A stretch of 64,000 nt of DNA from Ophiura sarsii (taxonomy: Eukaryota; Echinodermata; Ophiuroidea; Amphilepidida; Ophiuridae), in contig CM069441.1 in NCBI GenBank assembly GCA_035610835.1, forward strand, positions 107,755,144-107,819,143, written 5' to 3'. The notes beneath the pieces are model-generated. The model did not search any database, was not told the origin of the DNA, and worked only from the letters and a program-made list of their open reading frames with translations. This document shows, piece after piece, positions 21,134 to 57,784 of the stretch. Each line of letters begins with the position of its first letter. Positions within the stretch are counted from its first letter, which is position 1. The translations under genes were made by a program, and so were the position numbers.

Positions 21134-21334
<201 letters not shown>

Positions 21335-28163: not shown

Positions 28164-28737
28164 TTGAACCATCCGGAAGTACAGCTACACATGTCAGTGA
28201 ATCATTTGGACTATCAAGCTTTCGGACGACGCTGTCCTACCACCACACCTACAACCATCACAGCGATGGCCGACACTGGAGCCCAATCTTGCCTCTGGTC
28301 AATGGACGGTTTTTTGGCTGCTGGATTCCTTGCATGTCCACGTAGACCTAATCGCAGCCAACAAGTCTCCTATCACCATAGACGGCGCTATCATTGTGCG
28401 TCTACAAGGAGTGCCCCTGAGCGATGACAAGAAATCGTGCGCCACCATGGTATATGTAAGCAAGGCAGCTCATGGATTTTACCTGTTTTGGGAAGCCATG
28501 ATGGATCTTGGAATAGTATCGCACGACTTCCCCTCAGTTGGAGCAGCTGAACTTCAGCCCAACGTCCACTCAACATGCTCAAGGAGGATCACCCTGCAAT
28601 CAACGCCGGTTGCTCCGCACCATCTTCAAATGAGACGGGCCCGTGTTCTTGTCCACCACGTACAGTGGTTCCCGATCGGCCCATTACGGCCGGTGGAGGT
28701 ACACCAGAGCGCCCCAAGGCTTCCTATCATCCGGTGA
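28164..28737 (+). pseudogene. Ty3/gypsy-like element: protease region, frameshifted
   Basis: The active-site motif of a retropepsin (MADTGAQSCLW) is read from about 28264 in one frame. The continuation (ANKSPITIDGAIIVRLQG and onward) is in another frame from about 28330. At least one frameshift therefore separates the catalytic Asp from the flap-side sequence, and the region cannot make an intact protease. Confidence 0.65.
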
Positions 28738-29467
28738 CAGATACAACCGCCGTTTTGACGCTATCCTCTCTGATTTCGACGACAAGGAGCGTTGCGTCGA
28801 TGACACCATCCACTACGACACTAGCCTCGAAGCACATTGGTGGAGAACCATTGACTTCCTAATTCGTGTTGGCCAGTCAGGAATAGTTCTCAATCCAGAC
28901 AAATTCCGTTTCGCACGCAGAGAGGTTGATTTTGCAGGCTTTCGGATCTCGTTCTTAGTTAACCAGGTCGCCAACTATGCACAACTACGCGACACCATGG
29001 CGCCCTTCAAACCATTCCTCAGCCCAAAGGTCCGCTTCGAATGGACTCCTGCGCTTGATGAAGCCTTCAATACGTCTAAGGGTGCCATCGTTGACGCCAT
29101 CCACCGCAGCGTAGAGATATTTGACCCTACGAAGAGAACCTGCCTACGCCCAGATTGGTCATGCAAGGGCATCGGATACTTCCTATCACAGAAGCACTGT
29201 GCCTGCGAGTCCCGCATCCCTGACTGCTGCGATGATGGATGGATGGACTCGAACAGTCGAAATACTTTACTCAGGGATGCAATGACCTTCTCGTTGTCAC
29301 TGATCACAAGCCCCTGGTCAAGATCATGGGAGACCGTACTCTCGATGAGATTCCCAACTCCAGACTCTTCCGCCTCAAGCAGCGTACACTACCATGGGCT
29401 TTTGAGATCGCACATCTCCCCGGCAAGACGAATACTGCCGTTGACGCCACGTCCCGACACCCCGTAA
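28643..29467 (+). pseudogene. Ty3/gypsy-like element: truncated reverse transcriptase
   Basis: The frame begins in the palm (YTRAPQGFLSSGDRYNRRFD) and contains CVDD where Y-x-DD is usual. It continues with the thumb/connection-like NPDKFRFARREVDFAGFRIS and the start of RNase H. The N-terminal fingers are missing, so the domain is incomplete. RNase H sequence then shifts to the overlapping frame that ends at 29688. Confidence 0.75.
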
Positions 29468-29688
29468 GCAACTTTGCAGAGCTATCTAGCCTCACACTAC
29501 ACTCAGCACAAGATGATGCCGAATGCGCCATGACTGCTGCCATCCGTCACGAGACGCAGAACATAACAGCATTGACATGGGAACGCATTGCCTCTGAGAC
29601 CGCAACCTATGATGATTATCCTGTCACGCGCCAGCTTATGGATGCACCGGCTTCGGGGATGCACACCGTACCGCGAATGACGGGCTAG
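29239..29688 (+). pseudogene. Ty3/gypsy-like element: RNase H end and linker
   Basis: This frame contains TDHKPLVKIMGDRTLDEIPN and FEIAHLPGKTNTAVDATSRH. These are the conserved TDHKPL and PG..N..AD..SR-type signatures of gypsy-like RNase H. It stops at 29686-29688, about 36 bases before the integrase ATG, so the polyprotein is broken between RNase H and integrase. Confidence 0.8.
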
Positions 29689-29723
29689 CCGCATTCTGGC
29701 AATACCGAGAGTCGCTCCATGTA

Positions 29724-30770
29724 TTGGATGGTGTCATCTTGTTCAGTGACCGTGTCGTTATCCCATCATCCCTTCGTGGCGAAGTTCTCCAGACACTCCA
29801 CTCCGCCCACCAAGGCGTCACGTCCATGGAATCGCGTGCTCGCGCTATCGTGTTTTGGCCGGGAATGACAAAGGACATTCAGTCAGCCCGCGAAAGATGC
29901 ACAGCATGCAACCGGAACGCCCCATCACAAGCTGCATTGCCCCCTACACTATCGTCAGTCCCCGCAACACCATTTGAATCGATCTACGCTGACTTCTTTG
30001 ACTTCGGTGGATGCCACTACCTAGTCGCCGGCGATCGTCTATCTGGATGGGTCGAAATCTTCAGAGCACCGCATGGTACCACCCAGGCTGGAGCGCAGGG
30101 CCTGATCGCTGCTCTCCGAACATTATTTGCCACGTTTGGCGTTCCTGAGGATATCTCGAGTGATGGAGGACCAGAATTATCTGCTTCCGCAACTGCCGGC
30201 TTCCTTACACGATGGGGAGTCCGTCACCGTGTGTCATCTGCCTACATCGCTCAATCGAATGGCCGCGCCGAAGTAGCAGTCAAGAAGGCGAAGCGCACCC
30301 TGATGGACAATGTTGGGCCCACTGGTTCCCTTGATAATGACGGTCTCTTACGGGCACTACTCCAATTGCGCAACACTCCGGATCCTGACTGCAACATCTC
30401 ACCGGCGGAAATAGTCTTCGCCAGACCTATACGCGATGCCTTCTCATTTGTCAGCCGACAGAACAAGTTCACCAACCCATCCATTCGCACTACCTGGCGC
30501 GAAGCATGGGCACTTAAAGAAGATGCAATGAAAGCCCGGATGCCACGCTCACTTGAAGCCCTCAACGCTCACGCAAGGCCCCTTGCACCACTATCGCTGG
30601 GCAACCGCGTGTTCCTGCAGAACCAATACGGTCCGCATCCTACAAAGTGGGACAAATCCGGCACAGTCGTCGAGCTAAGGGACCATGACCAATATTGGGT
30701 GAAGGTTGATGGATCTGGACGCTTATCGCTAAGAAACAGGCGCTTTTTACTCAAGTTTACTGTATTTTGA
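29724..30770 (+). CDS. Ty3/gypsy-like integrase, open for 348 codons
   Basis: A long uninterrupted frame carries an HH-CC zinc domain (TLHSAHQG then CTACN, residues about 27-74). The catalytic core has its first Asp in YADFFDFGG (about residue 90), its second in SSDGGPE (about 140) and the Glu in SNGRAEVA (about 180). A C-terminal DNA-binding-like region ends in RRFLLKFTVF. In a live element this would cut and join retrotransposon cDNA into the host genome. Here it is cut off from an intact gag-pol frame. The retained length could mean recent death or, less likely, separate use. Its codons are visibly more GC-rich than the surroundings. Confidence 0.85.
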   Translation: MDGVILFSDRVVIPSSLRGEVLQTLHSAHQGVTSMESRARAIVFWPGMTKDIQSARERCTACNRNAPSQAALPPTLSSVPATPFESIYADFFDFGGCHYLVAGDRLSGWVEIFRAPHGTTQAGAQGLIAALRTLFATFGVPEDISSDGGPELSASATAGFLTRWGVRHRVSSAYIAQSNGRAEVAVKKAKRTLMDNVGPTGSLDNDGLLRALLQLRNTPDPDCNISPAEIVFARPIRDAFSFVSRQNKFTNPSIRTTWREAWALKEDAMKARMPRSLEALNAHARPLAPLSLGNRVFLQNQYGPHPTKWDKSGTVVELRDHDQYWVKVDGSGRLSLRNRRFLLKFTVF

Positions 30771-40574: not shown

Positions 40575-40621
40575 CTAGTATTTAACGCAGTAGTTTTCTG
40601 GTTGTGGTCCCGGTAGATGAC
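40575..40621 (-). CDS. Solute-binding protein, coding exon 8 (C-terminus)
   Basis: An acceptor (CCTTCATTTCAG) is followed by two bases that complete Gly308, then HLPGPQPENYCVKY and TAG at 40575-40577. It supplies the eighth extracellular cysteine (C319). The segment follows the last domain helix (DLLDEHG in exon 7), where binding proteins normally end, so it is a short tail. Phase and acceptor both fit exon 7 exactly. Confidence 0.8.
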
Positions 40622-43600
40622 CTGAAATGAAGGCCAATAGATGTATACATAATTATTATGTTGTTATGAATCCAATTTCATTTTGTTTAAAAACTTTAAA
40701 CGTACTGTAGACTTATTGTGGGTTTTTTAATCGACATTAAAGAATTAGCCAATATTTTCAGTTAGAAAATATAATACTCAGAGAACCAAATACGCAAATG
40801 CTAAAACAATATCCTCTTAGCAATAGGCCTACATAGGGGGAAATAATTAGAGAATAAAGGTATTGTTTTTAGACCGTACCCGTGTTATATTGTCTGACAT
40901 AAATGCGGACGATAGTATTATTTTTATAAGTAGAACAACGACGCCGCAGGCGGAGTTGTTCTACGCAAAAAAATAATACTCCTTTATTCTCATTCTTAAA
41001 CAATCATACTTTAGACATTTATCAAAGAAATAAGTACATTTTATTGTCCACATTTGACAACTTTTACCCCTGCTAGGATCAAATAGCCCACAAACATTCC
41101 ATCCAATCACATGCGATGAGTAAACCATGCGTAAGCGTCGCAGCGCCGGCATAAACGCAGGAAAAGCGCTAAAGACGCACTGCAGAAGTGCGCGTTATGG
41201 AGCAAACCACGCATTGTGAAGGTCGGGCGCGCTGTTAAAACGCCCCACCTCCCCGTGTTCTATTGTCTCATAGAGATGTCGCCGATTTCTCTGAGAACCA
41301 ATGAGATTGCTTAAACTTTCTTAGCTGTTTAAGAATGGATGACATACAATGGCACTAGTAATTTCTTCAGGAATAATATACTTTTCACTCAAATGTTGCA
41401 CAAATAAACAAGAATATGCATGCATATTTCCTCATTGCAGGAATGTTCAAGCAGTCTCTGAACTCTGAATGGGCCCACATATGATATTGTCACGTATTAT
41501 GAACACATTGCATTTCTAGTTTGAGTTCTAGTACACTGTACATACCATGCTCATCCAGTAAATCGTTGCAGATTGCCCGCCATTCTGAGGTTGCCGTAAG
41601 CTTGTCAAAAGCGTCATTCCACCATTCTACCAAGCCGCTGTCTTTACGGACCATGACGGAATCACCTGCCTGCAGACACGATGTAATATCATCTGACGCT
41701 ACTTCTGTACGTTCATCAAGAGCTGGAAAACCTTCCTTGTAGTCAAATAAGGCATCAATCTGGAGACAAAAAATGGGAAATGTTAGGTATTTTCAGTAGG
41801 AGATAGAGTTCATCCTTCGTTATTAATATGTTACAATTATATTAAGAGTCTCTTTTTGACTTTTTGAAGAAAAAATTGTCAGCAATGAAAATTTGTCAAT
41901 GAAATAATAATATGTTAATAATCCCATGAAGTGATTTAAGTTTGACATTTATGAGTATATCCTTGGACTTTCGGTTTTGGAAGAAAACTGACATGGCGAC
42001 GAAGGTGTTTAGATCAAGTATTTTCGATGAAGTTTTCATAAGAAAAATGTGATTTATTTCTTGAGTCCATAGCATTGATCTCATCATTCAATTACTAAGG
42101 CCACTAGCATGACATTATGACTCTATAAAGCCAGCTCAGTTTCACGATAACGTTACAAGCTATCTATGATTAACATACCGGATGACAATATGTTGCAAAA
42201 AAATGCAATATGAGTTAAACAGCCATACACAACCAGATTTGTGATCTCACAGACGACCCACTATGGGCGGCCATCACTGTCAAAAAGGTCAAAAAACAAA
42301 CAAAGGTCTCAGAAAACAGGTCTCAAAAAACAAGCAAAGGTCTCAAAAAACCAGATAAATGTCTCAAAAAACAGACAAAGGTCTCAAAAAACAAGCAAAG
42401 GTCTCAAAAACAGGCAAAGGTCTCAAAAAACAGACAAAGGTCTCAAAAAACAGACAAAGGTCTCAAAAAACAAGCAAAGTCTAAAAAACTCGTAAAGGTC
42501 TCAAAATCTGGAAAGGTCAAAACTTACAGAGACGTCTCAAATCGCAATAAGGTCTTATTGTGATTTTTGACCGTAGGCCTATTCCGTTTTTTGACCGTAC
42601 TGTGATTTTTGACTGTATTGCGTTTTTTGACCTTATTGCGATTTGAGACCGTATTGTGATTTTTGACCTTATTGCGATTGAGACGTCTCTGTAAGTTTTG
42701 ACCTTTCCAGATTTTGAGACCTTTACGAGTTTTTGAGACTTTGCTTGTTTTTTGAGACCGTTGTCTGTTTTTGAGACCTTTGCTGGTTTTTTGAGACCTT
42801 TGTCTGTTTTTTGAGACCTTTGTCTGTTTTTTTGAGACATTTATCTGTTTTTTGAGACCTTTGCTTGTTTTTTGAGACCTTTGTCTGTTTTTTGAGACAT
42901 TTATCTGGTTTTTTTAGACCTTTGCTTCTTTTTTGAGACCTTTGTCTGTTTTTTGAGACCTTTGCTTGTTTTTTGAGACCTTTTGTTTTTGAGACCTTTG
43001 CTGGTTTTTTGAGACCTTTGTCTGTTTTTTGAGACATTTATCTGGTTTTTTGAGACCTTTGCTTGTTTTTTGAGACCTTTGTCTGTTTTTTGAGACCTTT
43101 GTTTGTTTTTTGACCTTTTTGACAGTGATGGCCGCCCATACCCCACGCACAACCATCTCGTATGGATCAATAAGCTGCGTTTATCGTATTCATCGATCAA
43201 AATTAGGCTATTATCTGAAATATTGAGTTCAGTAAACACTTGAACAAATACTTATCACAAGATATGCAAATATCGATTATTAGCTTTGACAAGAGTTAAA
43301 TCCAACGGCTGGTTTAATTGACCGACATTTTTAGCATTCTATTCACACACACAGCACAATATCAAAAAGATTATATTTTGCATCGCGTGCAACATCCGGT
43401 ATGAATACCTCTCCGAGAACTATAGTTCAATCAGTTCCAAATTGGCGAAACAAATTTGGTATTATCTCTCCGCGCGCAATTCAAGCGTATGCGTGAGATT
43501 ATAATCACACGCACGCGATTAGGGTCGCACGAACGCGGGGAACGCATATGATGCACAGTGCTGTATTTCTTCGCTGCTGTAAAGAGGTTTCGCCAATTTG

Positions 43601-46600
43601 AAGCTGATCAAACTATACGCTACTAGCACGGTACAGATGGAACCATTGAAAGCGAGGCGCTCCCTTCACCACGCACTATCACGCCCATCCCGTCACGCGG
43701 GTGTGTGCATCGCGACGTGGTTTGGCGCGTGCGTAATGATGGGAGAGCCTCGCTTTCATTCTAAAATGGCGATTGCGTGCAAGTAGCGTATAGAATCGGT
43801 TTAGCTTAATAAACAATGAGCGGCAGTCAACTTGGCACTTAAATATTGTGGTAGAGACACCCCTTCTAATTCCTTACCTCATCATTCAAGAGTCCAGCTA
43901 AGAGTTGATCACGTCCGGCATAATGTACGATCTGGTCAACAGAAAGGTCCGCGCCCTGTTTAAAATCAAAATATCATCGACAATGTGTAAATTGATATGG
44001 AGCAAGACATTGTTCGGACATTGTTCGGACATTTTGCTCGAAACGATTAGGAATATACATTTCTAGGGTAAAAATGTTATTTTTGTTGATAAGCAAGGAT
44101 TGACCCCATATTATTTAAAGAGTCACAGTAGTTATTCTGGTTTAAAATTGTGAAATAGGGCCTATCCTTGAAGAATAACAATTGACCGGTCAAGATTACA
44201 GACCACATTAAATCAATATCGAAAAAGTTCGTGAAGAGCGGTATCATCAAATTGGAGCCCATTGGTATTTGAATTCAGCTGTATGACCATGAAAGTAGTG
44301 TTGGGAACCAGCAAGTAGTGATAACCCTGTTTTCCCCGCTTCGGAAAACGTCAATAATTTGAACTGTCTCCGTGAATAAATATGTAAACATGGCGAATGT
44401 CATATTTAACCTTCATGTTTACTTTCGTTATGACAATCGTCATTCGTGATAACTACATGTAAGATGTGTCAAACATAGCGCAGGCCTATATTTCATGTTC
44501 ACATACCGTTATCCTATCCGACTCCCTTGCCACACATAGAGACGAGTATGCCCATCCATCTATGAATCCTATCTTACTATCAGTCAGATCCGTCCAAACA
44601 AAACCGGTTTTGCCTTTCTTTACCACAAAGACGACGATGATATCTTGGCTATATGGCTGGGTAAATTTAAAGGTACGTGGTCTGTCATACGTCTTCAGCC
44701 ACCCTGTATTTAGGGGCAAATTGAAGATTATAAGAACAACAATAACATTAATGGTTAGTGGAGACCAGGAAAATCAGCAAAACGTCAACTAACTTCTTAT
44801 CGGATCGCTTTGAATACCACAATGAAGAAACTTAGACGTGTCACTTCAGATTTGTATGAAGTAACTTGCTCATCCGCCACAGGCATATAGCTGTCAGCTT
44901 AGTGGAGACATGAACCAGAATGGACAGTATTTCGGCATATTCATAGATCTCTATCTGTATGCCATCTCACAGACGAGGTCAAGTAAACGCATTCTTTGAA
45001 AAATAAAGATTTTATTTATTTAGTGCTTCCTCTTGCTTTATGTGATCGAGACCTTATATCTCTCCAAAACCATGCCAAAACACACGAAATAGATTGCCGA
45101 TTGCCAGTGGCATGCATCAAGGAATTTCATTTCATTTCATTTCATTTCATTTCATATTTATTTAGCCAAATCAACATTGCACATCTAAACACATAAATAG
45201 ATGGAACATACAATAATCAAATATAATAAATATAAAAGACAATAGTAAAAAACACAGACAGAAAGCATGTTGATAAGGGAGCAGTTCCATTTGTACGCGA
45301 TAAAAATTGCGAGAATGTTCCGGGCCCCGATGAGTTTTTTATCAGGCCCCGATGAGATTTTTAGCGCGTACAGTTGCGAGTAGCAAAGGATTATTTATCA
45401 TGTAGCGTATTACCGCTTGTTTAAATATAACGAAAGATAAGTGGTCGGTATGTAAATAGAGCTTCGGGTTATTTATTCTAGTTGTAAGGTACAAATTCAG
45501 CATTTCATGTTTTTAGAGATAATGTTATTGATTATGGATGTTTAACGTAAATTGTATTATCCTCGTGTATTTGCTAAACAATGTCCCGCTCTATTTGCTA
45601 AACATAACCCAGGGTATGGCAGAGGCCTCGTATCGGGCCCCCATGTCTATTTTATCGGGGCCTGATGACTATTTTATCGCGTATCAACTTGAAAAACATC
45701 GGGTTCGTCCAAAACATATCAGGCCCCGATATAGTCGCGATAAATTTATCGCGTACAAATGGAACTGTTCCCTAAGACCAACGATAGGCCAAAAAGCCAC
45801 AAGAGCTTATTTCCATTGGGGTCCTTTCAAGATAACAGCACAAACAAGAGAGCAACAACTAACAAGTCAAGGCATGGTACCCCCCTCCCTCTCTCAATCT
45901 GGCTTTCATTGCAAGATGAGATTTTACTTCTTTTTTGAAGTAGGCATAGTATTTCTCGATTTAATATCGCCTGGAAGAGAGTTCCATGCCCCAACCGCAG
46001 TACATTGGAAGGTGTTGCTGCCAAGTTGCCCCCGGACCCTTGGAATGACAAATTTTAGGTGGCTATCTCTGGTATTATAGCAATGGATTTCTGATACTTT
46101 CATAAAAAGTTCACTAAAATAACCTGGTGAGATGTTATTAAAATTTTTGAAGGCATGGTTCAACTTCATTTGCTTAACTCTATCATCAACATTGAAAAAA
46201 CCCAATCTGTCAAGTTCAGCCTGGCCAACATGTGTTCTTGAGTCAAAACCAAGAACAAATCTAACAACCTTATTTTGAGTGACCTGAAGTCTATTTTGGA
46301 GTTTTTTAGAAAGACCGGAAAACCAAGATAAACAAGAATAGTCAAAATAGCACTGAATCAAAGCTGTAACTAAAGTTTTACGAGTTATTTGATCAAGAAA
46401 ATGAGCTTGTCTGTATAAAAACCTAAGTCTGGCAACAGCTTTTTTAATAACATTATTAGCAACAGTCTCGCCTGAAAGGCAATTATCCAATGTGATCCCC
46501 AAATACTTGACAGATTGGGTAGATTTGATAGGTACATTATTGCACATAACATTAAAATCATTGTGTTTCTTTAAATTCCTCTTTGAGCCAAAAAGAATGG

Positions 46601-49600
46601 CCTCGGTCTTACCCAAGTGAAGAGACAACTTGTTGTCGATGAGCCACTTTTGACATGACTCTAACTCCTTGCTAAGCTTAGCAGCAATTACATCAGGATC
46701 TTTGTCATCAACAAGCAATGCACTATCGTCTGCATAAAGTTCTAGCTTACAGTCCACACTGATAGGCATGTCGTTGATGTAGCAAAGAAATAAAAGCGGC
46801 CCCAATACACTGCCCTGAGGCACGCCGCAAGTAATTGACATAGGATTTGAGCTAGTTTTATTAACACAGACAACCTGTTATCTATCACTTAGGTAAGACC
46901 TGAACCAATCTATTGACTCAACACCCATAACATGAAGTTTATTGCACAAGATATCATGATTGACCGTGTCAAACGCTTTTTGTAGATCTATTAACACCAT
47001 ACCCGTATAATTTCCCTCAGAAACCTGTGTACGCACGTGATCGGTGAGGTGAATGAGACACGTATCGGTAGAGTAAGTCCCTCTAAAACCAGATTGGTGA
47101 GAGTAGAGAAGTTGATGATCGGTTAAATATTGGTTAAGTTGGTTGTTGGGAATTGGCACCTCATTGTAATCGTGCAAATAAAATGGCGTATATTTTTAAT
47201 TTTACTCACCCACGCATGCGTCGTAGTATCCTCCAAACAAGCCATCACCGCCCTGTGCACGGCCGCCCGGCTGTGAAGTCCAGCATCGCTGAGGAGAATC
47301 GTACACCAGTTCACAGTTTTTGCCGGCAATTTGACATACTGTAGATAAACAAAATCGTCATTATGTTAACTAAACAATCACTGACTTAACCCTATTTTGT
47401 CTCTTTATTTTGAAAATTACCGATTTATTTTACATAAAACCGTAGTTTTCTACAACCGTAGTACATAGATCGTTTTAGTGGTATGTTATAAGGGTGTCCC
47501 ATAATGATTTATACCGGGAATGATGCATTTATTTTTATAGATATGAATTGTCATTGGTCAATGTGCTTATGATTCAAACACATTATATTAAGCCTTCTTA
47601 GGAATTGAATTTTAAAAATCGATAGTTTGCCCATGGCGATGACCTGTCCTGTCTGTCTTCTCGGACCTTCTAAGCATTTGGAGTTTTAAATTCATCCTTT
47701 TTAATTGTAAAAAAGTACGCCTGTCATCCCATTAAATTTGTCCCGGATTATGCTAATCAAGTTTACAGCGCAACAAGAACAGCTAATCAACATTCCCGCT
47801 ATTATCTTCACGCTGAATCAGAGATCAATAGGAGTCACTGCAACAATTGAAATGGGCACTTTTCATCTGTAAGCACATACCGCGACAACATACTCGATCG
47901 ATTTTAACAAACAAGGTGTCAAAATCACCGTAATTAAACTTTCCGTCTCCCGGTATTTTCATTTTTAGAATATGAGTAACAACTTTAAAATTATAGGTGC
48001 TTTTACAACAGCCGAGTTACTTTTTTTGCTGTCTTTATATCATTGTATTTTTACTTATTGCCTTTTTTTTTTAATTCCAATTTTTCTATTGATGGGCTAA
48101 TATTCTGTATAGGCCTATCACTTTTAATCATGTGTGTATTTTATCTCGGTACAGCGCTTTGGTCTTTTTTCGAAAAGGCACTTTATGAATGCTGTTTAAT
48201 AATGATAATAATAATAATAATTAGTAAAAATAATAATGTCACGCCATTTGGATATTTTTATCCCATTATTTCGCAAGCATTAGACTTGGACTGCAATTTT
48301 TGAAACACGGTATAAATCATTCTGGGACACCCTATTTAGGTAAGTGTGACTGTAGTTGTATTGTGAGAATCAATTTCAATTCTGATTAAGAAGAGCTCAA
48401 AAGTTCTATGGGTAGCTTGATCCAAACATTTCTTTCGCTTGCTTTGCATTAAATCCGATAATTCAAAATAAAATCATTCCAAGAACGTCTGCATTACCAT
48501 CACAACAAAAGCAGAACCTCGTTTTTTGAAAAATGGTTAAGCGTAAACAACATTGAAGTTGTAATGCATTTAAAAAACCCATCAAAACAGTCCTGTGGCG
48601 ATCTTAAATATATTTCCATCCAATTTACTTACATTTGATCAATAATGAAGCAGAACAACTGCAGATGTCACATAGGCTCGTAGATTACAGATTTTGCGGA
48701 AGAAAACACAAAACGCATTTCGCCGATATCTACATAAAAGGCGCTTCCGGTAATCTTTTTAGCTCTGTTATATTGCACACATTCATAATTTATAACTACG
48801 GAAATAGCATTACAAAAATGACAATTATTCATAGAAAATCCATCCATCATTCTCATAAATTCAAATAAATATGTCACTAAAACCTTATCAATGTTTGAGA
48901 TCTCAAAAAAATAATAAGACTATTCTAAATGAAGGCGAAAAATAGTCATCGGCTTGATGCCGGACAAATGTTAATAACACTATAGACTTTCAAATAATCT
49001 AACATTAAAGGTATATTATGTGATCTTTCCAGGGAACGCCCTCAACATCGAAAAAAAAAATGAAAGAAGATTTTCTTGCAGATTTACATTTCTGATCATA
49101 AATCGTACATACATTCCAAGTTACAGGGCGATACGATTCTTAATTACTTCAAAATCATGATTTAAGAGTGAAAATAAACTGTCGGATAACTCCGACAGTT
49201 TATATTTTTACTCTAAATTCACTCTAAAACCATGATTTTGAGGTAATTAGGAATCGTATCGCTCTGTAACTTGGAATGTATGTATGATTTATGATCAGAA
49301 ATGTAAATCTGCAAGAAAATCTACTTTCTAAAAAAAAAATGAATAGAGGGCGCTATCTTGAAAAGATCACATAATATGCCTTTAACTCGTCCATGGATGT
49401 TAACAGAGTTACGATGCTCCCAAGATGACGAGTTTTATCAGAGGTGTAGAAAGGTGTTGGGTATAAAATAACAACAACAAATCATTGATTATTTAGGCGG
49501 GTTTTAAGTTATTGGATTTTGTAGGGGCACCAAAATCTCACAATAAAATCTATTCATTTATTTTTACTCGAACTTTAGAGAAGGGACGCCGGAATCCACC

Positions 49601-52600
49601 CTTGCTCCGGGCGCCATCGATTCTCGCTTACGCCATTGAGAATTAAAGACTGCGATGGTTGGTGTATTTACCCTTATTTGTTAGGTCAACAGTGAGTCCT
49701 CTGAGTTCACCACTGGCGTCATCGCTAAATCAGCAACATGATTATAGACACACAAAAATGAAGGATTAGCAATGAAAACTTTGATTACTATTACCAATTA
49801 TAATTTACCTGAAAAGGGTGGAATATTGCATTGGTAACATGGTTGAAATGTATATTTTGTACAACGAAAGATACATGTGGAGGAAATAACCTACAAATGC
49901 AAAATTATGAAACATTTAGGTACATTTACAGCATTTATTACCTTTTCTGGGATGTTAGATTTAGACTTATGGTGGGTCAATCTTAATTTCAAACACTGCC
50001 GTGTAATATCAGAATGCAAAATATGATTTGGTGGTGTGTACTGTTAAGGCAGAACTGCAAAACTAGTACCGAGTGACTTATATACGTAAGACTTTTACGA
50101 TAGGCACCAAATTAATATTTTGCATCACCGTATACGTACGAGGGGCGGTCAGTAAATAATGAAAGTGATCATGGTATGGGATGCATGAGTGATTCTATTG
50201 AGGGGATAATGTGATCAATACAAAGTATGAACCTTTGTCTTTCAAACAATACAGTTTTGGATTTTTAAGTGTGAACTATGACGTCATAGCATTGTCTCAA
50301 AGTAAGTACACTTGGGACACTGCTAAATCAGTTATTTGGCGGGAAATTTGAATTGTTTTTATGAAACACGTGGTAAGAAGATTGCATAACATGACATCAG
50401 AAGCAGGTAAATCCCGATTTTTTTTTCTCGCATAAATATGATACAAAAGACAATAACTTTAATCCCTGTGTAATTTGGAATGTGTAATATAAGAGGAAAA
50501 AGTAAGGAGAAGCAATTGAATAAAAGGTATACAAATATCAGTATTTCAAATAGCTAATTTTCATTAAAAATGCCCAGTCAGTGAATCACTAATATTGCGG
50601 AAAATCAAACAATTTAGGAAAAATTCAAGCAATTAACCAGTTTGGAAGATTCCATATGATAGTTAACTAATTATCCGAACTTATTCGCATGAAACCTGCA
50701 GAAAAAATGCGCAGATAATTTTGAAACGGGCCCGAAATGGCTAAAATCATGAAATTTACCAGATAAAAGCTTACTGTGCCTTCAAATTCTAATCAGAAAT
50801 AATGAAAAATGCTTAAATCAATGTGTTAACATATTGTGATAGTCAAAATGAAGATATACAGGAATGTATCAATCAAAGATGGCTGCCACAACCTCTCTTA
50901 TTACTGTTATCTTTAGAGCTAATAGATATGTATTGTGTAGGTAATCGTCATGTAATTTCAATGGTTTGAGGAAATTTTATGAACAGCTCCTTTTGAAATC
51001 CCCACTATTATTGCTTTACATCCCACAACAATTTATTAAATTATAATCCCTCCATTGTTCTTTATCCTTTGTTGTTTTCTAAGGTATATTATTGCGGATT
51101 TTGCTAAATAAAAGCGTATTTGAGATGGTCCCTTCTTGTTCGTATTAAGGCATTTAGATCTAAAAAAGAGTGTCAAACAGAGATAAGTGTGTATTCTAAC
51201 CATGTGCCAAGTGTTATCTGTTTTTATGCTTGCATTGCCGAGATATACGCAAATGTATCAATCAACCCATATTCAACATATTACATATCCAGCCAAATAA
51301 TTGACAGATTTCAGTCAGTGTCTGAAACCTATTGTGTTTATGTTAATGACGTTACATAACCAAAGGTATCTAACAATCCAAAAGTGTATTGTTTGAAAGA
51401 CAAAGGTTCATACTTTGTATTGATCACATTATCGCCTCAATAGAATCACTCATGCATCCCATACCATGATTCCTTTCATTATTTACTGACCGCCCCTCGT
51501 ACAAGCACCAAAAGAAATTAAATTGGGACAAATGCATATAATATGATGAGTCTTACGTACTAGTTGTACAGCACGGCCTAACAAAGAGGGAGAATATCAA
51601 ATTATTTTCGAAATCATGTTAACGCTTTGATGAGTTGAAAGATATGACATTCATAATAAAAGTATTGATTCAAGGTCAATAGTAATCCGACTTTGACAGG
51701 TAAAGACATGATTGCTTTCATTTGAAATGTAATTACTCTCAAGGCGAAATCATTGATCATCAGTCCAACATTTATTGCTTTAAAGGGATACGCAGTATTT
51801 ATTGTTGAAGAATTATTATTTATTTAATATACATGTACTTCAGAATTCAAGATGAACATTATCACGAAAGCAGCCTTAGGCCAAAACAAATATATGTTTG
51901 ATTGTCCTCGTCCGCCCGACCCTCTTAATCATTCCGACTCAAAACCCATTTTTTTCTTCTTTTTTCTTCTTTTTTTTGAATTTTTTTATTTATTTGTTTA
52001 AAAATTTCAATTTTTTTATTTTAAAAAGTCATTTTTTTGCAAATATTAGTCGAAAATCAAAATTTTCACTTTTTCATTTTTTTTTTTAAGTGTTGAGAAA
52101 ATAAAAAAACTCATCAAAATATTAAAGATTTTGTTGCCCGTTTTTGTTCCCACAACAAGTACATCTCATTTTCCTTTTGGTACCTGAAAAAGGGCAAGTG
52201 AGAAAGAATAAAAAAAACCTTTTCCCGACCGACCTACCCAACTTTTAAAAGTGACCTATGGACAATCAAACATTTATTTTTTTTGCCTTATGTCCAGCAT
52301 CTTTATATTGTGACTATTTATAGAGCTTTATAGCAGGGGAGCACACATGGTTTTGAAACACATTGAAACACATTTGCCCTTCTACCCTAAATAAAGGTCA
52401 AAGGTCAATTAACCACACGTTGGCAAGGATGTCCACATAGGTTTTCATTCTACCGACTTCAAAGAACATTTTGGTATATAACTCCCTAGAGCTGTGTCAG
52501 CTTAGACCGGAACCGGAAACCTATATGCTCCTTACTATACTGGTGTGAAATTCTTGTCTAAGCCGTAAATCAGAATATTTGAATGGACGTTTTGTTGTAC

Positions 52601-55600
52601 AAAGAGGGTTGGTTTTCCTGAATCCTTACAAATTACAAGTGTAAGTTCATTCTTGTAATACAATTGTTAAAATGTACAAATCCCAGTTTGTATCATCAAA
52701 ATTGCGGGCGCAGCCTCCAAGACTCTGATGAATAAACGGGGTCCACCCGCTAGTCATAAGGGTCGCTAGTCATAAGGTTCATAAGTCATAAGGGTCGCTA
52801 GTCATAACGTGTATTTTCCTATACCACGAGTGCGCTAGTCATAAACGTATATGAGGGTTCACTAGTCATAAAAATGAAGGTCAGTAGTCATAAGGCCCGC
52901 TAGTCATAAATATGATATAGGTCCGCTTATCATAATATGAAAAAGGGTTCGCTAGTCATAATATACCAAAAGGTTCATTAGTCATAATCACAATAGGGGG
53001 TCGCTAGTCATAAAATACCTAAAGGTTCGCTAGTCATAATAAAATAAGGTTCGCTAGTCATAATGTTTTAATTATGACTAGCGACCCTTTTTGAAGAAAA
53101 AAGGTCCGCTAGTCATAAATTTTCACACGGTCCCCTAGTCATAATTTTACAAAAGGTCCGCTAGTCATAATATATATAAAGTTCGTTAGTCATAAGGGTC
53201 GTTAGTCATAAAATACCTAAAGGTTCGCTAGTCATAATAAAAAAGGTTCGCTAGTCATATTTTTTTAATTATGACTAGCGAACCTTTTGAATAAAAAACG
53301 GTCATTAGTCATACATTTTCACACGGTCCGCTAGTCATAATTTTTCATACGGTCCGCTAGTAGTCATAATTTTTTTTTTTTTAAAGTGCGCTATATATTT
53401 GGGCCTACACAAAATAGCCCGCGCGCTATAGTTATGAATTAAAAAACTTAGATAAAGGCCTAAACAAAAAATAACTAAATTATAATACCTGATAATTAAT
53501 TTGCTGATTTAAACCACAAAATGTAGCCCATTCCTTATCTTAACATGTCTAAATGGGGGAAATGTATACGCTTAAGTTTATTTGTCCAAAGATATGAAAG
53601 GGACACGGAAAGATTGATGATGAAAATGAGATTTGAAGAAAAAAAAGAGTTTCAATAGATATGGTTTAATAGAACCCTGAAACGTAATATTTCATGGGAA
53701 AACGCTTGAAGTGATGGCGCTAGATAGACATTCTGGTGAACTATAGTATGTGCTGGATTTAACATCGAAATTGCCAAATTGTGGAATATTACATGATATA
53801 CTGCGAATTAAGGTAAACTGTTTCAGATGGTAGTTCGTATTCCTTTAAAGTATTACTTTGGTGCAAAAAAACCCAATGTTCAGGAAAATTGAGCTGGGTA
53901 CGCCACTACCCTCATGTCCTTCCAATTTCAAGACTCTAGTTACGCGACTGGTTACTAATGCTTGCCGAATACTTTAGGCGTTGACTTGTCATTTTGATAT
54001 TATTATTGGTTTTGAATATTTCTAATATTACTTAGAAAGAACGGGGAGAGGGGGGAGGGTAGAGGAGAGAGGGGAGAGGGGGAGAGGGGAGAGGGGAGGG
54101 AGGAGGGAGGAGGGGAGGAGGGGCACATTGGAAAAGGGTATAGATATAATAATGTATGTGCCGCACTGAAGACCCCCTTTTTCACCCTCTGCTGCTAGCT
54201 CTTATGACCCCCCTTTTGAGCCTGTATCAGTTCTTAAGACCCCACATTTGATTGAATGTTTTGTTATTGGAGGCAGCTCAGTGCTGCCGAATCAACCAAC
54301 TAAGCTGGAGACCCAATACCAGGACCCAATGCATGTTCATAATGCAATAACACAGTTGTGTACTAGTACAGAATGATAATACAATGTCTTGAATAAACCA
54401 TTTCTTAGGCTGATAGGGTGTATAATAATACATTTACACCCTTCCCCTCCTGCTCCTCCCCCAAAGTGTAACTCTACCAAAATCGACAACATTATAAGGT
54501 TTAGTTGTAGTTTTGATCACGCTAGCCATATTCAATGCCATGAATACCACTCGAGATATTGTGTAGACTACAAACAACAACTCCAACTGGGTTATAATAT
54601 TCTCAAGGTATACTTAACACTGTATGGCATACTAAAAGAAGAAGAAAAAAATCAGTTATATTATTGCATTGAATATTGTTGTCGTTAAACTTGCAGCCTA
54701 ACCCAAACAGGTGACATTGGAGGGTATTGAGCATATCTATGCAACCGTAACGCAAGTAATTTGGTATCAATAGCATGTTTGGTTATCATGGAAGATTGGT
54801 ATTGGTATTATTCTATCCGTATAGCTGTCTCATATTAAATACCGATAAAAATAGACTACAATTTCAATAGAAATGAATGACTTCTATTGTTTCTGAATTT
54901 CTGAATTTCTTCAGTTGAGTTTCGACATACCGATGGTATCATACACCTTTCGATATAGATTGTAAGTTGAAAAGATACGCCTACAATCCATGTGAATAAT
55001 AAAATAATATGTACAATCTCAGTAAATGGTATTATCCAATTTATATGAGTGAGTGGTATGATCGTTTTACTGCACTGTGTTTAATGAATTACACTATAAC
55101 TTAGTGTGATGTGAAAAGTATTACAAATTATTAAATACTTTTAATGTCAAAATACTCGACACGTCATTGGTTTTTTTAATCACTCAGAACATAGACCAAA
55201 TATAATTACAAATTATTCTTTATGATTCTTTAAAAACAAGTGACCGATTATTACCAAATGATGCTAGTGTTAGGAAAACTGGCATATTAATCTACATCTT
55301 GTTTCTTTCGACTAGTTATAGTTTTTCCCTCTTTTTTTTTAGCTGACTGTCTATGCACAGTTAAAAAGGGTGGTAATTTCCTATGATTTACTGCTTCGGA
55401 ACGTCGGAAGAGATTACTTCTTTCTTCTTCTTTTTTTTGAAGGGGGGTGGTGTTTTTATCTTCTTCACTGGTTTTTTTCTAAATTCAACCTGTTCAGCTT
55501 GATAATAATAGAATTAGAACCACTAACGTTAAAACTGCGTTTTGACATGACAAGGTCTTCAACTCATTCCAATAACTGACTTAGTCTTGGAATAATTACT

Positions 55601-57784
55601 CGTCCATAAAGTAGTGAAATTCTGGTGGGTTATCTTTGTCATCCAGGAAACTTACATGTATCCATATGGGCCACCGGTGTGCTCAAATGACAGCTGCCAT
55701 ACTCTGTCACCTTCACTGGAACCTCCTGAAAAGGGGGATTACAAATGTCTTTATTAGTACGATATTTAACTCACTGTTAAATACGTTAGTCGTGTTCCTC
55801 CTAATTGGTCCTATAACTTAAGCCATCAATATTGACTAATGTTAAGTCAAAACGATGTCTTATACGACAAATAAGATGGAATTTACTAATTGTTTAACTG
55901 TAAAACGTGTACAGGTGCAGTGTCAGACTTGGTTACATTCGACTTAAAAAATCAAATATACCTTTAATCCGTCTTAATTTAGTAATAGAAGTAGAAATAG
56001 AAGTTGAAGTAGAAATAGTGGTAAAAGTAGAGGTAGAAGTAGAGTAGAAGTAGTTAAGAAGAAGTAGTAGTAGAGATAGAGGTAGAAGTAACAGTACAGG
56101 TAGAAGTAGAAGTAGAGGTAGAGGTAGAGGTAGAGGTAGAGGCAGATGTACAAGTAGAGAAAAACGTAGAGACAGAGGTAAAGATAGAAGTAGAAGTAGA
56201 AGTAGAGGTAGAAGTAGAGATTGAGACAGAAGTAGATAGAGGCAACGGTAGACGTAGATGTAGATAACGAAGTATATGTAGAGGTAGAGGCAGATGTAGA
56301 TGTAGAAGTAGAAGTTGATATAGATATAGAAGGTAGAGGTAGAGGTAGAGGTAGAGGTAGAGGTAGAGGTAGAGGTAGAGGTAGAGGTAGAGGTAGAGGT
56401 AGAGGTAGAGGTAGATATGAAAGTAGAGGTAGAAGTAGAGATTGAGGCAGAAGTAGAGGTAGAGGTAGATATAGAAGTAGATGTGGAGGTAGAGGTAGAG
56501 GTAGAGGTAGAGTAGAGGTAGAGGTAGAGGTAGAGGTATAGGTAGAGGTAGAGGTAGGAGGTAGGAGGTAAAAGTAGAGGTAGAGGTAGAGGCAGAGGTA
56601 AAGGTAGAGATAGAGGTAGAGGTAAAGGTAGAAGTCGAGGTAGAGGTAGAAGAAGAGATAGAGGCAGTAGTAGGAGCGGTAGAGGCAGTAGTAGGAGCGG
56701 TAGAGTTAAAAAATAGAGGCAGAAGTAGAGGTCGAGGTCGGAGTAGAGGTATGTCGAGGTAGAGGTAGAAGTCGAGGTAGAGGCAGAGGTAGAGGTCGAG
56801 GTCGAGGTCGAGAAAGAGGTAGAAATAGAGGTCGAGGTAGAGGTAGATCTAGAGGTAGAGGTATATAGAACGTAGACGTAGAAGTAGAGGTTGAGGCAGA
56901 AGTAGAATTAGAGGTAGATGTAGAAGAAGTAGATGTAGAAATAGAGGTTGAGGCAGAAGTAGAGGTAGATGTAGATGTAGAAGTAGAGGTAGAGGTGGAG
57001 GTAGAAGTAGAAGTAGACGTAGAGGTTGAGGCAGAAGTAGAGGTAGAGGTAGAGGTAGAGGTAGAGGTAGGGGTAGGGTAGAGGTAAAGTTAGAAGTAGA
57101 GAGAAATTGAGGCAGAACTGAAGTAGAGGTAGAGGTAGAGATAGAGGCAGAAGTAGGAGAGTACGTAGAGTTAGAAGTAAATATATAGGCAGAAGTAGAG
57201 GTAGAGGTAGAAGTCGAGGTAGAGGTAGAAGTAGAAGTCGAGGTCGAAGTAGAAGTCGAGGTCGAAGTAAAGGTAGAGATAGAGGTACAGGTCGAGGTAG
57301 AGGTAGAAGTCGAGGTAGAGGCAGAGGTAGAGGTTGAGGTCGAGGTCGAGGAAGAGGTAGAAATAGAGGTCGAGGTAGAGGTCGAAGTAGATGTAGAGGT
57401 AGAGGCAACTTAGAGGCAGAGGTAGAGGTAAAGGTAGAGGTAGAAGTAGTGGTAGAAGTAGAAAGTGGATGTAGAAGTAGAAGTAGAAAGTGGAAGTGGA
57501 AATAGCTTCAAGGAGAAGTGGAAGTACGGAATGTAATTAAGAACCAGTGTGAATTGAAGTGTGTTATCATTTACCAATATTTTCTTTGTCAATTATCTAT
57601 TACCTGAATTTTGTGAATAAGTTCCAGACGACCCGCCGTTATCCTGTGATGAGCCACCGTTGTTGCTATTATTACTAATGCTGACAATGCTTATAATAAG
57701 TGCTACAGCGCCTAACACAAGAGCTATTACTACTACCGCTATAAGAACTGTGTTATTTCCGTTCTCATCTTTTGAGGTTGCCAT
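40575..57784 (-). CDS. Membrane-anchored family 3 solute-binding protein, whole gene (8 coding exons)
   Basis: The exons join to 969 coding bases (322 codons plus stop) with intron phases 1, 2, 1, 1, 0, 0, 1, and every intron is GT-AG. Residues 1-12 are cytoplasmic, 13-36 a membrane helix, about 37-70 a Ser/Gly/Asn linker, and about 70-307 a family 3 (amino-acid type) extracellular solute-binding domain. Family hallmarks seen in order are GELRGLTVDL, GLFGGYYDACVGW, R152 followed six residues later by F158 and PY (the ligand-carboxylate Arg spacing of bacterial binding proteins and glutamate receptors), WTDLTDSKIGFIDGWAY, IDALFDYKEG and WWNDAFDKL. The eight cysteines after the helix are all extracellular and even in number. 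No pore helices separate the lobes, so it is not a glutamate receptor channel. The likely role is binding an amino acid or related ligand outside the cell; partner and ligand are unknown. Origin by ancient transfer from bacteria is possible. Confidence 0.9.
40622..41545 (-). other. Intron 7 of the solute-binding gene
   Basis: A phase-1 intron with donor GTATGT and acceptor TTTCAG. It contains the hairpin-headed repeat at 40846-41335 and otherwise AT-rich sequence. Confidence 0.8.
40846..41335. repeat. Hairpin-headed repeat, copy 2
   Basis: Second copy of 33772-34287. The left arm matches copy 1, but its middle carries a different stem-loop (GTAGAACAACGACGCCGCAG...GTTGTTCTAC). Most of the returning arm is missing, so the long palindrome of copy 1 is lost here. 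The body after CATTCTTAAACAATCATACT is well conserved. Confidence 0.7.
41546..41759 (-). CDS. Solute-binding protein, coding exon 7
   Basis: A phase-0 acceptor (TTTGTCTCCAG) and donor (CATG|GTATGT) bound 214 bases encoding residues 237-307 and the first base of 308. It starts IDALFDYKEGFPALDE, the lobe-2 strand that in binding proteins carries the acidic residue contacting the ligand amino group (D242 is the candidate here). AGDSVMVRKD follows, then the terminal helices EWWNDAFDKLTATSEWRAIC. Cysteines C264 and C299 lie here. Confidence 0.9.
42262..43140. mobile_element. Large palindrome of 20-bp minisatellite units
   Basis: The left arm repeats GTCTCAAAAAACAGACAAAG and variants; the right arm repeats the same unit inverted. 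The outer ends (TATGGGCGGCCATCACTGTC) and inner ends (AAACTTACAGAGACGTCTCA) match in inverse around a centre at about 42556-42663. CCCAC lies beside both outer ends (42257-42261 and 43142-43146), a possible 5-bp duplication. Open frames rich in SQKTDKG are repeat artefacts. A transcript through this intron could fold into a long double-stranded stem. Confidence 0.85.
43616..43790. mobile_element. Small MITE with TA flanks, 175 bp
   Basis: TIR TACGCTACTAGCACG and the inverse of TACGCTACTTGCACG are followed on both sides by GAAAGCGAGGC. TA flanks the ends (43614-43615 and 43791-43792), fitting a Tc1/mariner-type insertion. The centre is CpG-rich. Confidence 0.65.
43878..43955 (-). CDS. Solute-binding protein, coding exon 6
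   Basis: Phase-0 boundaries (TTTAAACAG acceptor, GAG|GTAAGG donor) frame exactly 26 codons, residues 211-236: GADLSVDQIVHYAGRDQLLA and then GLLNDE. This corresponds to the lobe-2 helix preceding the D-A strand (start of exon 7) in family 3 binding proteins. The fit in both phase and domain order supports it despite its small size. Confidence 0.88.
43956..44506 (-). other. Intron 5 of the solute-binding gene
   Basis: A phase-0 intron, donor GTATGT and acceptor TTTAAACAG, about 550 bp. I see no element inside. Confidence 0.75.
44507..44703 (-). CDS. Solute-binding protein, coding exon 5 (hinge and ligand Arg)
   Basis: The exon runs from acceptor CTAAATACAG to donor ACG|GTATGT and encodes residues 146-210. 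WLKTYDRPRTFKFTQPYSQD aligns with the family pattern of a ligand-binding Arg, six residues to Phe, then PY. R152 is in the position of GluA2 Arg485 and of the Arg in bacterial amino-acid-binding proteins. The hinge strand IIVVFVVKKG and lobe-2 entry FVWTDLTDSKIGFIDGWAYS follow. C201 lies near the end. This is the most diagnostic exon of the gene. Confidence 0.92.
45124..47177 (-). mobile_element. 5'-truncated LINE (Jockey/CR1-like) with reverse transcriptase
   Basis: Minus-strand coding runs from 47177 to 45924 in one frame, broken by a single TAA at 46876-46878. The upstream part has HQSGFRGTYSTDTCLIHL and VLIDLQKAFDTVNHDILCNK. The downstream part has CGVPQGSVLGPLLFLCYIND, the catalytic ELYADDSALL, and the C-terminal YNTRDSHL...WNSLPGDIK pattern. 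The 3' end has AATAAATATGAAATG and a (TGAAA)n tail (45124-45155 on the plus strand). The endonuclease and the N-terminal half of the RT are missing. The 5' junction lies only about 32 bp past the exon 4 splice donor. The stop and the nested MITE make it a dead copy. Confidence 0.9.
45277..45772. mobile_element. PIF/Harbinger-like MITE nested in the LINE, 496 bp
   Basis: TIR GGGAGCAGTTCCATTTGTAC and the inverse of GGGAACAGTTCCATTTGTAC extend through GCGATAAA. TAA flanks both ends (45274-45276 and 45773-45775), as in PIF/Harbinger. The interior is tiled by ATCGGGGCCTGAT in both orientations. It separates the LINE stop region from the LINE tail, so it is younger than the LINE. Confidence 0.85.
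47210..47338 (-). CDS. Solute-binding protein, coding exon 4
   Basis: The acceptor TTTATCTACAG is followed by TA, which completes Val102. Then residues 103-144 follow, CQIAGKNCELVYDSPQRCW through GGDGLFGGYYDACV, and the first base of Gly145 precedes donor G|GTGAGT. GLFGGYYDACVG is the family G-L..G.YDA..G signature that closes lobe 1 before the ligand Arg. Four cysteines (103, 110, 120, 143) lie here. A longer-looking open frame on the same strand is out of phase with the neighbouring exons. Confidence 0.9.
47491..48333. mobile_element. Inverted-repeat element with AGGGTGTCCCA ends
   Basis: The ends AGGGTGTCCCATAATGATTT (to ATACCG) and the inverse of AGGGTGTCCCAGAATGATTT form a TIR of about 26 bp across 843 bp. 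The terminal sequence is like that of mariner-type elements, although a clean TA duplication is not visible. A SINE-like 3' end with (ATA)n lies inside at about 48150-48225. No transposase is seen. Confidence 0.65.
49009..49381. mobile_element. piggyBac-like MITE, family A, copy 2
   Basis: Near-identical arms to 23362-23738 (AGGTATATTATGTGATCTTT and its inverse), with TTAA on both sides (49005-49008 and 49382-49385). The central stem-loop differs: CGGATAACTCCG here against CGTGTTTAAAACACG in copy 1. Confidence 0.85.
49672..49724 (-). CDS. Solute-binding protein, coding exon 3
   Basis: A 53-base exon between acceptor GCTGATTTAG and donor AGG|GTAAAT. Its first base completes Ile84, followed by DDASGELRGLTVDLTNK (residues 85-101) and one base of Val102. 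This is the D-x-G-x-L-x-G-x-x-V-D-L motif of family 3 binding proteins, where lobe 1 presents its first ligand-pocket loop. Small size hides it from ORF finding, but phase on both sides and motif order make it convincing. Confidence 0.88.
50139..51499. mobile_element. mariner-like element with long TIRs, 1,361 bp
   Basis: TIRs of about 120 bp begin CGAGGGGCGGTCAGTAAATA and include TGAACCTTTGTCTTTCAAAC. TA flanks both ends (50137-50138 and 51500-51501). The interior contains a 79-codon open frame that is not transposase-like. It is non-autonomous, with unusually long and well matched TIRs. Confidence 0.8.
51879..52287. mobile_element. PIF/Harbinger-like MITE, 409 bp
   Basis: TIR GGCCAAAACAAATATATGTT and the inverse of GGCAAAAAAAATAAATGTT both continue into TGATTGTCC. 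TTA flanks both ends (51876-51878 and 52288-52290). The interior is T-rich. Confidence 0.7.
52745..53372. repeat. GCTAGTCATAA interspersed array
   Basis: About two dozen copies of GGTTCGCTAGTCATAA or GGTCCGCTAGTCATAA are separated by variable spacers of about 5-20 bp. At least two units are inverted (about 53070-53090 and 53265-53290), so local hairpins can form. Spacing is irregular and repeats are variable. It lies in intron 2 of the solute-binding gene. Confidence 0.85.
54035..54250. repeat. Homopurine tract plus copy of the 7.2-kb repeat
   Basis: A tract of G and A only on the plus strand (with one T) spans about 54037-54122. Immediately after it, about 54130-54250 is the inverse of about 7220-7330, including CTGCTGCTAGCTCTTATGA. 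Confidence 0.7.
55656..55725 (-). CDS. Solute-binding protein, coding exon 2
   Basis: Acceptor CCCCTTTTCAG is followed by GA, which completes Gly61. Residues 62-83 follow (GSSEGDRVWQLSFEHTGGPY and GY), plus two bases of Ile84, before donor AT|GTAAGT. It covers the end of the flexible linker and the first strand of lobe 1 (WQLSFEHTGGPYGY, equivalent to the family's first strand plus the aromatic pocket loop). Phases fit exons 1 and 3 exactly. Confidence 0.85.
55983..57530 (+). repeat. (GTAGAG)n-type hexanucleotide array, about 1.5 kb
   Basis: About 1.5 kb of degenerate AGGTAG, AAGTAG and AGGTCG units sits in intron 1 of the solute-binding gene, with a purer block at about 56330-56415. Open frames on the minus strand (Ser-Thr or Pro-Leu repeats) are artefacts. 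The plus strand is nearly all G, A and T. Confidence 0.9.
57604..57784 (-). CDS. Solute-binding protein, coding exon 1 (start, membrane anchor)
   Basis: ATG at 57784 in a strong context (AAGATGG), with an in-frame TGA 7 codons upstream. It encodes MATSKDENGNN, then a hydrophobic helix (VLIAVVVIALVLGAVALIIS, residues 13-32, extending to about 36), then NNSNNGGSSQDNGGSSG. The last base starts Gly61 before donor G|GTAATA. The charged N-terminus and lack of a cleavage-type signal suggest a signal anchor (type II) with the C-terminus outside. The exon probably extends to 57815, where TTTAATTTTCAG is an acceptor, implying an upstream noncoding exon. Confidence 0.88.

Follow-up and report, generated by a model that had tools for sequence, protein, structure and literature searches.

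A stretch of 64,000 nucleotides (nt) from the brittle star Ophiura sarsii (assembly GCA_035610835.1, contig CM069441.1, 107,755,144-107,819,143; hereafter the window, with coordinates given as 1-based positions within it) carries an eight-exon, minus-strand gene for a bacterial-type solute-binding domain, or flytrap, that follows a single predicted membrane helix. The gene and its many relatives in the same genome probably encode tethered surface flytraps for small carboxylate or amino-acid-like ligands, acting as receptors or capture proteins. Gene structure, domain family, the predicted fold of a relative, family size and selection are the direct basis for this reading, and from them we infer topology, ligand class, partner and role. 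The original prediction, made from the letters of the window, had described one such gene; the gene itself stands, while a larger family of at least about 90 genes had been missed.

The gene and its exons

Rebuilding the eight predicted exons gives 969 nt (remainder 0), or 322 amino acids followed by TAG. The GT-AG borders and agreeing phases (1, 2, 1, 1, 0, 0, 1) that had been proposed were seen at 7/7 introns, and the start lies in the context AAG-ATG-G with in-frame stops 5' of the ATG. The landmarks GELRGLTVDL, GLFGGYYDACVG and WTDL were searched for and occur in the expected exons, with R-x5-F..PY in exon 5. Elsewhere in this genome, at C19:52660000-52676999, a paralog contains blocks matching all eight exons in unchanged order. 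The exons, with the evidence for each in parentheses, are as follows.

Exon 1, 57604..57784, minus strand: ATG, short N-terminal tail, predicted transmembrane helix at about residues 11-37, linker start; donor phase 1 (splice sites and frame; exon 1 of the C19 paralog)
Exon 2, 55656..55725, minus strand: linker end and first flytrap strand; phase 2 (splice sites and frame, alignment)
Exon 3, 49672..49724, minus strand: DDASGELRGLTVDL, start of lobe 1; phase 1 (motif, splice sites and frame, alignment)
Exon 4, 47210..47338, minus strand: VCQIAGKNC cysteine pair common with bacterial relatives, Trp121, GLFGGYYDACVG; phase 1 (splice sites and frame, alignment)
Exon 5, 44507..44703, minus strand: GWLKTYDRPRTF (Arg152), WTDL, IGFIDGW, Cys201; phase 0 (splice sites and frame; query for the family count)
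Exon 6, 43878..43955, minus strand: GADLSVDQIV and following residues; phase 0 (splice sites and frame, alignment, paralog)
Exon 7, 41546..41759, minus strand: IDALFD, Cys264, RKD, EWWNDAF, Cys300; phase 1 (splice sites and frame, exon-7 copies)
Exon 8, 40575..40621, minus strand: HLPGPQPENYCVKY including Cys319, then TAG (splice sites and frame, alignment, paralog)

A five-protein alignment is gap-free at 6/7 exon junctions, and junction 1, which falls within the low-complexity linker, is less certain than the other six. An AG read by eye 31 bases upstream of the ATG suggests a 5' untranslated intron. The view that this is a real animal gene agrees with the intact frame and splice sites and with the relatives found in other animals, and the model is confirmed, far beyond chance, by close animal relatives that align across the exons. 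No second copy was found within the window by tblastn. The window protein itself was not among the database matches of three protein searches, and this copy looks unannotated in the protein database searched.

Domain family, fold and membrane anchor

The only family that Pfam found in the window protein is SBP_bac_3, the solute-binding family to which it had been assigned; the hidden Markov model PF00497 scores 47.1 bits against a curated cut-off of 26.4 over residues 77-300. PDB sequence searches matched mainly bacterial amino-acid-binding proteins, the best being STM4351, and the predicted fold of a relative is the two-lobed periplasmic-binding fold. The proposed membrane anchor corresponds to one hydrophobic segment N-terminal to the flytrap domain (mean Kyte-Doolittle hydropathy 3.43), with a conserved small-residue face on the helix and a Ser/Gly-rich linker between helix and flytrap. 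As had also been proposed, there is no sign of a channel: PF00060 is unmatched at E<=1, and the only hydrophobic segment lies N-terminal to the flytrap, which is therefore not interrupted by the pore loop and pair of helices of a receptor channel; the model of the relative P0001 likewise has one such segment. Beyond the first, bacteria-shared cysteine pair there are six conserved cysteines. The product would be a type II, single-pass surface protein, which would place the disulfides of the flytrap outside the cell.

The putative binding site

The first cysteine pair, Trp121 and Arg152 are kept in 9/9 rows of an alignment that includes four plasmid-encoded bacterial proteins. Arg152 precedes the F of F-(S/T) by six residues, which is where the carboxylate-binding arginine of LAO/HisJ-type proteins lies, and among 76 distinct exon-5 copies of this genome the residue is Arg in 74 and Lys in two. 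Trp121 aligns with the bacterial cleft aromatic. The LAO equivalents are R77, which holds the ligand carboxylate, and F52, and D161, which aligns with window residue 243, is the acid that binds the ligand amine. Crystal structures are listed for LAO mutants at D11, Y14, D30, S70, S72, Q122 and D161. Asp242 was considered as the equivalent of D161 and dropped, the alignment putting D161 at 243.

The window protein is like bacterial LAO/HisJ/ArtJ-type solute-binding proteins of family 3 (PF00497) in domain family, predicted fold, first cysteine pair and cleft Trp and Arg, but differs in being animal, in its eight exons, N-terminal membrane helix and six further conserved cysteines, and in having no amine-binding Asp at the aligned place. 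Of the residues that bear on the earlier, still putative, reading of amino-acid binding, the carboxylate Arg and stacking Trp are kept and the Asp is not kept at its aligned position. A carboxylate is a likely ligand for the window flytrap, judging from these residues.

A family of about 90 genes

When exon 5 of the window copy was used as query in this genome (1.57 Gb, 748 contigs), 91 places were found at E<=0.01 among 94 candidates, a count that rests on E-values and a splice-site check without a reversed-query control; 88 of the 91 are stop-free. They lie on 16 contigs, led by C19 (26), C15 (14), C6 (12) and C17 (10), with 69 in 21 clusters (neighbours within 200 kb) and 22 solitary, the window gene among them. 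The 82 copies examined (80 fetched, plus the window copy and L009; among the nine not included are the three with stops) all have an in-frame acceptor and donor, given a tolerance that was unneeded for 81 of the acceptors and 43 of the donors, the other donors being 3 to 9 bases off where exon length varies. All but L078, which has a stop, are stop-free (81/82), and together they encode 76 distinct proteins; near-identical pairs may be unmerged alleles. With P0001 as query there were 124 exon-sized matches, the best exon being 82% identical, and 36/36 exon-7 places picked by eye from these matches have both splice sites (within 12 bases) and no stop. A PF00497 profile search of the genome returned four places, all exons of ionotropic glutamate receptors (iGluRs; L005, L006, L007 and L008) and none of the flytrap family, whose exons are too short or too diverged to be caught in this way. 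In an exon-5 tree with few columns and little resolution, 41 rows from this genome form their own group (support 89), pointing to an expansion among brittle stars. Ten others fall with rows from echinoids and holothuroids (support 90), as if there were several old lineages.

The ratio of nonsynonymous (dN) to synonymous (dS) change indicates that close paralogs are mostly under purifying selection: dN is below dS in 136 of 146 exon-5 pairs that are no more than 25% different (median ratio 0.38), although the pairs are not independent. Compared over 232 codons, the window gene and the C19:52.67-Mb paralog are 62.5% identical; differences at the three codon positions are 0.31, 0.24 and 0.58, with dN 0.33 and a dS of 1.78 by LWL85, no NG86 estimate of dS being possible. 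Gly190 and Cys201 are unchanged across the 76 distinct copies, among which positions 147 (3.48 bits), 148, 153, 166-168, 171, 196, 197, 200 and others vary strongly. Positions 147/148 and 196/197 align by hand, within one residue, near LAO S72 and T121/Q122.

Relatives in other animals and descent

Compared with about 5.8 billion proteins, the spliced protein had four matches at E<=0.001, none weaker than 3.2e-67. Three of them, two from Amphiura filiformis (57 and 58% identical) and P0002 (63%), cover 98, 89 and 81% of the length; the fourth is from Apostichopus japonicus (41%). P0002 is whole at 355 amino acids on a 1282-base contig, which is too short for a multi-kilobase, intron-split gene and is therefore presumably a spliced transcript, giving the gene model indirect transcript evidence. 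A profile built from these matches found 19 proteins, of which 15 are named, in brittle stars, sea cucumbers, sea urchins and the priapulid Priapulus caudatus; the family is present in three echinoderm classes and one priapulid. Seven more A. filiformis proteins, which belong to a second subfamily, came from a third search, and six of these carry the label PF00497. In both profile searches scoring was confined to about 8000 candidates, which does not show absence elsewhere. The second subfamily (P0019-P0026, A. filiformis) consists of eight predicted, diverged proteins on one 60-Mb contig, and some of the models look truncated.

In a tree of 24 animal and four bacterial sequences, from which the truncated P0024-P0026 were left out, the animal and bacterial proteins separate at 100/100 and the window protein groups with P0001-P0003 at 99/100. 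The tree also recovers a group of echinoids (96/97), one of holothuroids (99/99) and a second one of ophiuroids (100/100), a pattern that long vertical descent within echinoderms would be expected to leave. Recent bacterial transfer was considered and rejected: the relatives of P0001 in a plasmid collection are 23-28% identical (15 listed of 37 matches), and of 38 pattern matches in genome_contigs and two in viral_contigs none was confirmed, the patterns being animal motifs that say little about distant bacteria. No bacterial donor clade was found among the 15 listed plasmid relatives or in the bacterial motif scan. The origin may be either an ancient bacterial transfer or old eukaryotic inheritance.

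Relation to known systems

Invertebrate Venus kinase receptors are likewise single-pass proteins with an extracellular flytrap; the window protein differs in having no Pfam kinase and a flytrap of the SBP_bac_3 kind. Animal iGluRs and insect-type ionotropic receptors (IRs), the latter also a chemosensory repertoire, share the flytrap fold, and the window protein differs from them in lacking a channel, having a single helix and giving no PF10613 match.

The same family includes entries named 'putative ABC transporter arginine-binding protein 2' (Apostichopus japonicus, 41%) and 'arginine-binding periplasmic protein-like' (Lytechinus variegatus, 44%), names that were probably assigned automatically. 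Neither the periplasm nor the ABC importer that they imply is known from animal cells. No transporter partner was identified for the flytrap family, ABC permeases, ATPases and other transporter partners not having been searched for. Other animal members in the matches are named, for example, 'uncharacterized protein', and the present reading, if true, would set right the misleading use of 'ABC transporter' and 'periplasmic' as names in the gene sets of sea cucumbers and sea urchins. Among the literature matches listed, which are not proof of absence, the family is undescribed, and none of the terms 'solute-binding', 'ABC transporter', 'amino acid-binding' and 'chemosens' occurs in the main text of the brittle star genome paper (PMC11310086). 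The domain itself is ancient and already known; it is the tethered animal family that is apparently undescribed in those matches.

Proposed function and alternatives

We suggest that one helix anchors the protein with its short N-terminal tail on the inner side of the membrane, and that a flexible Ser/Gly-rich linker leads from the helix to a disulfide-stiffened, two-lobed flytrap of the LAO/HisJ kind facing outside. The ligand on which the flytrap would close is a small molecule with a carboxylate, an amino acid or close analogue being the most likely candidate; Arg152 would hold the carboxylate and Trp121 would pack against the ligand. Lacking both a channel and a cytoplasmic signalling domain, the protein would in its closed form have to act through another membrane protein or a dimer, aided by the conserved small-residue face of the helix. 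The lineage would have multiplied the gene to about 90 copies, keeping fold, cysteines and Arg constant and varying other positions, as expected of a surface repertoire of sensors or capture proteins for different ligands. If this is true, a bacterial-type nutrient-binding domain on animal surfaces, acting without a channel, would be a further route to detect or collect small molecules, and the repertoire, with its roughly 90 copies, would offer a concrete and testable candidate for brittle-star chemical sensing or the use of dissolved organic matter.

Several observations weigh against this reading. Topology is not decided by the net charge near the helix. An amino acid is a possible but uncertain ligand, because position 243 is variable and Asp242, one place before it, is present in 23/36 exon-7 copies and in none of P0004-P0019; in addition, the animal loop matching LAO S69-S72 is one residue shorter. 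Ten of the 146 exon-5 pairs do not have dN below dS. The variable positions were mapped by sequence alignment only, 166 and 167 are more variable than 147, and the variable positions away from the cleft are probably on the surface.

A degenerate iGluR that has lost its channel, a possibility already named in the original prediction, is very unlikely and was rejected: PF10613 and PF00060 are unmatched at E<=1 in the window protein and in four tested relatives, whereas 4/4 iGluR exons of this genome (39 to 93 amino acids), run as a positive control, match PF10613 at 56.0 to 97.2 bits and also PF00497. The family profile matches 49 PDB sequences at E<=1, none of which is named an iGluR, and the bacteria-shared cysteine pair is kept; an animal iGluR is also absent from 50 structure-listing matches, a listing that excludes nothing. 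An assembly contaminant or pseudogene, for which only the retrotransposon remnant in intron 4 could be cited, is scarcely credible and was likewise rejected, given 322 intact codons with intact splice sites, conserved relatives in other animals and purifying selection.

The remaining alternatives concern the role of the tethered flytraps. It is possible, and we put it forward tentatively, that they form a chemosensory repertoire of tuned receptors in sensory-cell subsets of tube feet and arms with a shared signalling partner. The family is large and largely clustered, with a constant frame and variable positions of which some fall near the predicted cleft, and we count in favour a starfish chemosensory paper (PMC6267866), which names iGluR-related IRs and G-protein-coupled receptors (GPCRs) and does not contain 'solute', 'periplasmic' or 'ABC transporter'. 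However, the proteins have no signalling domain, and many large non-sensory families are clustered too. Nutrient scavenging seems rather unlikely; here the flytraps would raise the local concentration of dissolved amino acids at the epidermis and pass them to solute carrier (SLC) transporters, without signalling. Type II SLC3 heavy chains pair with amino-acid transporters and offer an analogy, and the type II-like layout without a signalling domain, the fold of bacterial capture proteins and a conserved helix face suited to a membrane partner all agree with it; but about 90 copies, many clustered and diversified, exceed the apparent need of bulk uptake, and a transporter partner was neither searched for nor identified. 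Recognition of microbes or self is unlikely; in that role flytraps sitting on coelomocytes or under the cuticle would bind small molecules made by microbes. Brittle stars host bacteria below the cuticle, and a big, diversified surface family would suit such a role; echinoderm subcuticular bacteria are a published topic. Against this, Pfam finds no immune domain and exon 5 is mostly under purifying selection. Sequence cannot decide among sensing, uptake and recognition, although diversity with a constant anchor leans to a repertoire of specificities. We would offer only as a doubtful conjecture that brittle stars have made, out of a bacterial-type amino-acid-binding flytrap, about 90 tethered surface receptors with a constant carboxylate core, tuned specificities and a shared membrane partner, and that these make up an undescribed animal receptor class apart from GPCRs and iGluR-derived IRs.

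Introns, repeats and surroundings

Further features lie between the exons.

Non-LTR (long terminal repeat) reverse-transcriptase remnant, 45924..47161, minus strand: inside intron 4 and not part of the gene; RVT_1 profile positions 111-205 in 45924-46874

In the frame tried, its upstream part (46880-47161) has five stops. The other introns hold several arrays: about 250 degenerate copies of a hexamer (TAGAGG) occupy most of intron 1 (55986-57487), arrays of a short unit around TTATGACTAGCGAACC lie in intron 2 (52930-53361), and two oppositely oriented arrays of a 20-base unit flank 42.6 kb in intron 6 (42289-43113), possibly a large hairpin or palindromic element. G strongly exceeds C at 56-60 kb. 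Elsewhere in the window, a GC-rich segment on the plus strand (28634-30770) is an LTR-type retroelement remnant with an integrase zinc-binding domain (PF17921, 52.3 bits) and pieces of rve, reverse transcriptase and RNase H that score under their cut-offs in separate frames. A perfect (TTG)67 array at 21134-21334 gives several open frames of poly-Gln, poly-Asn or poly-Val.
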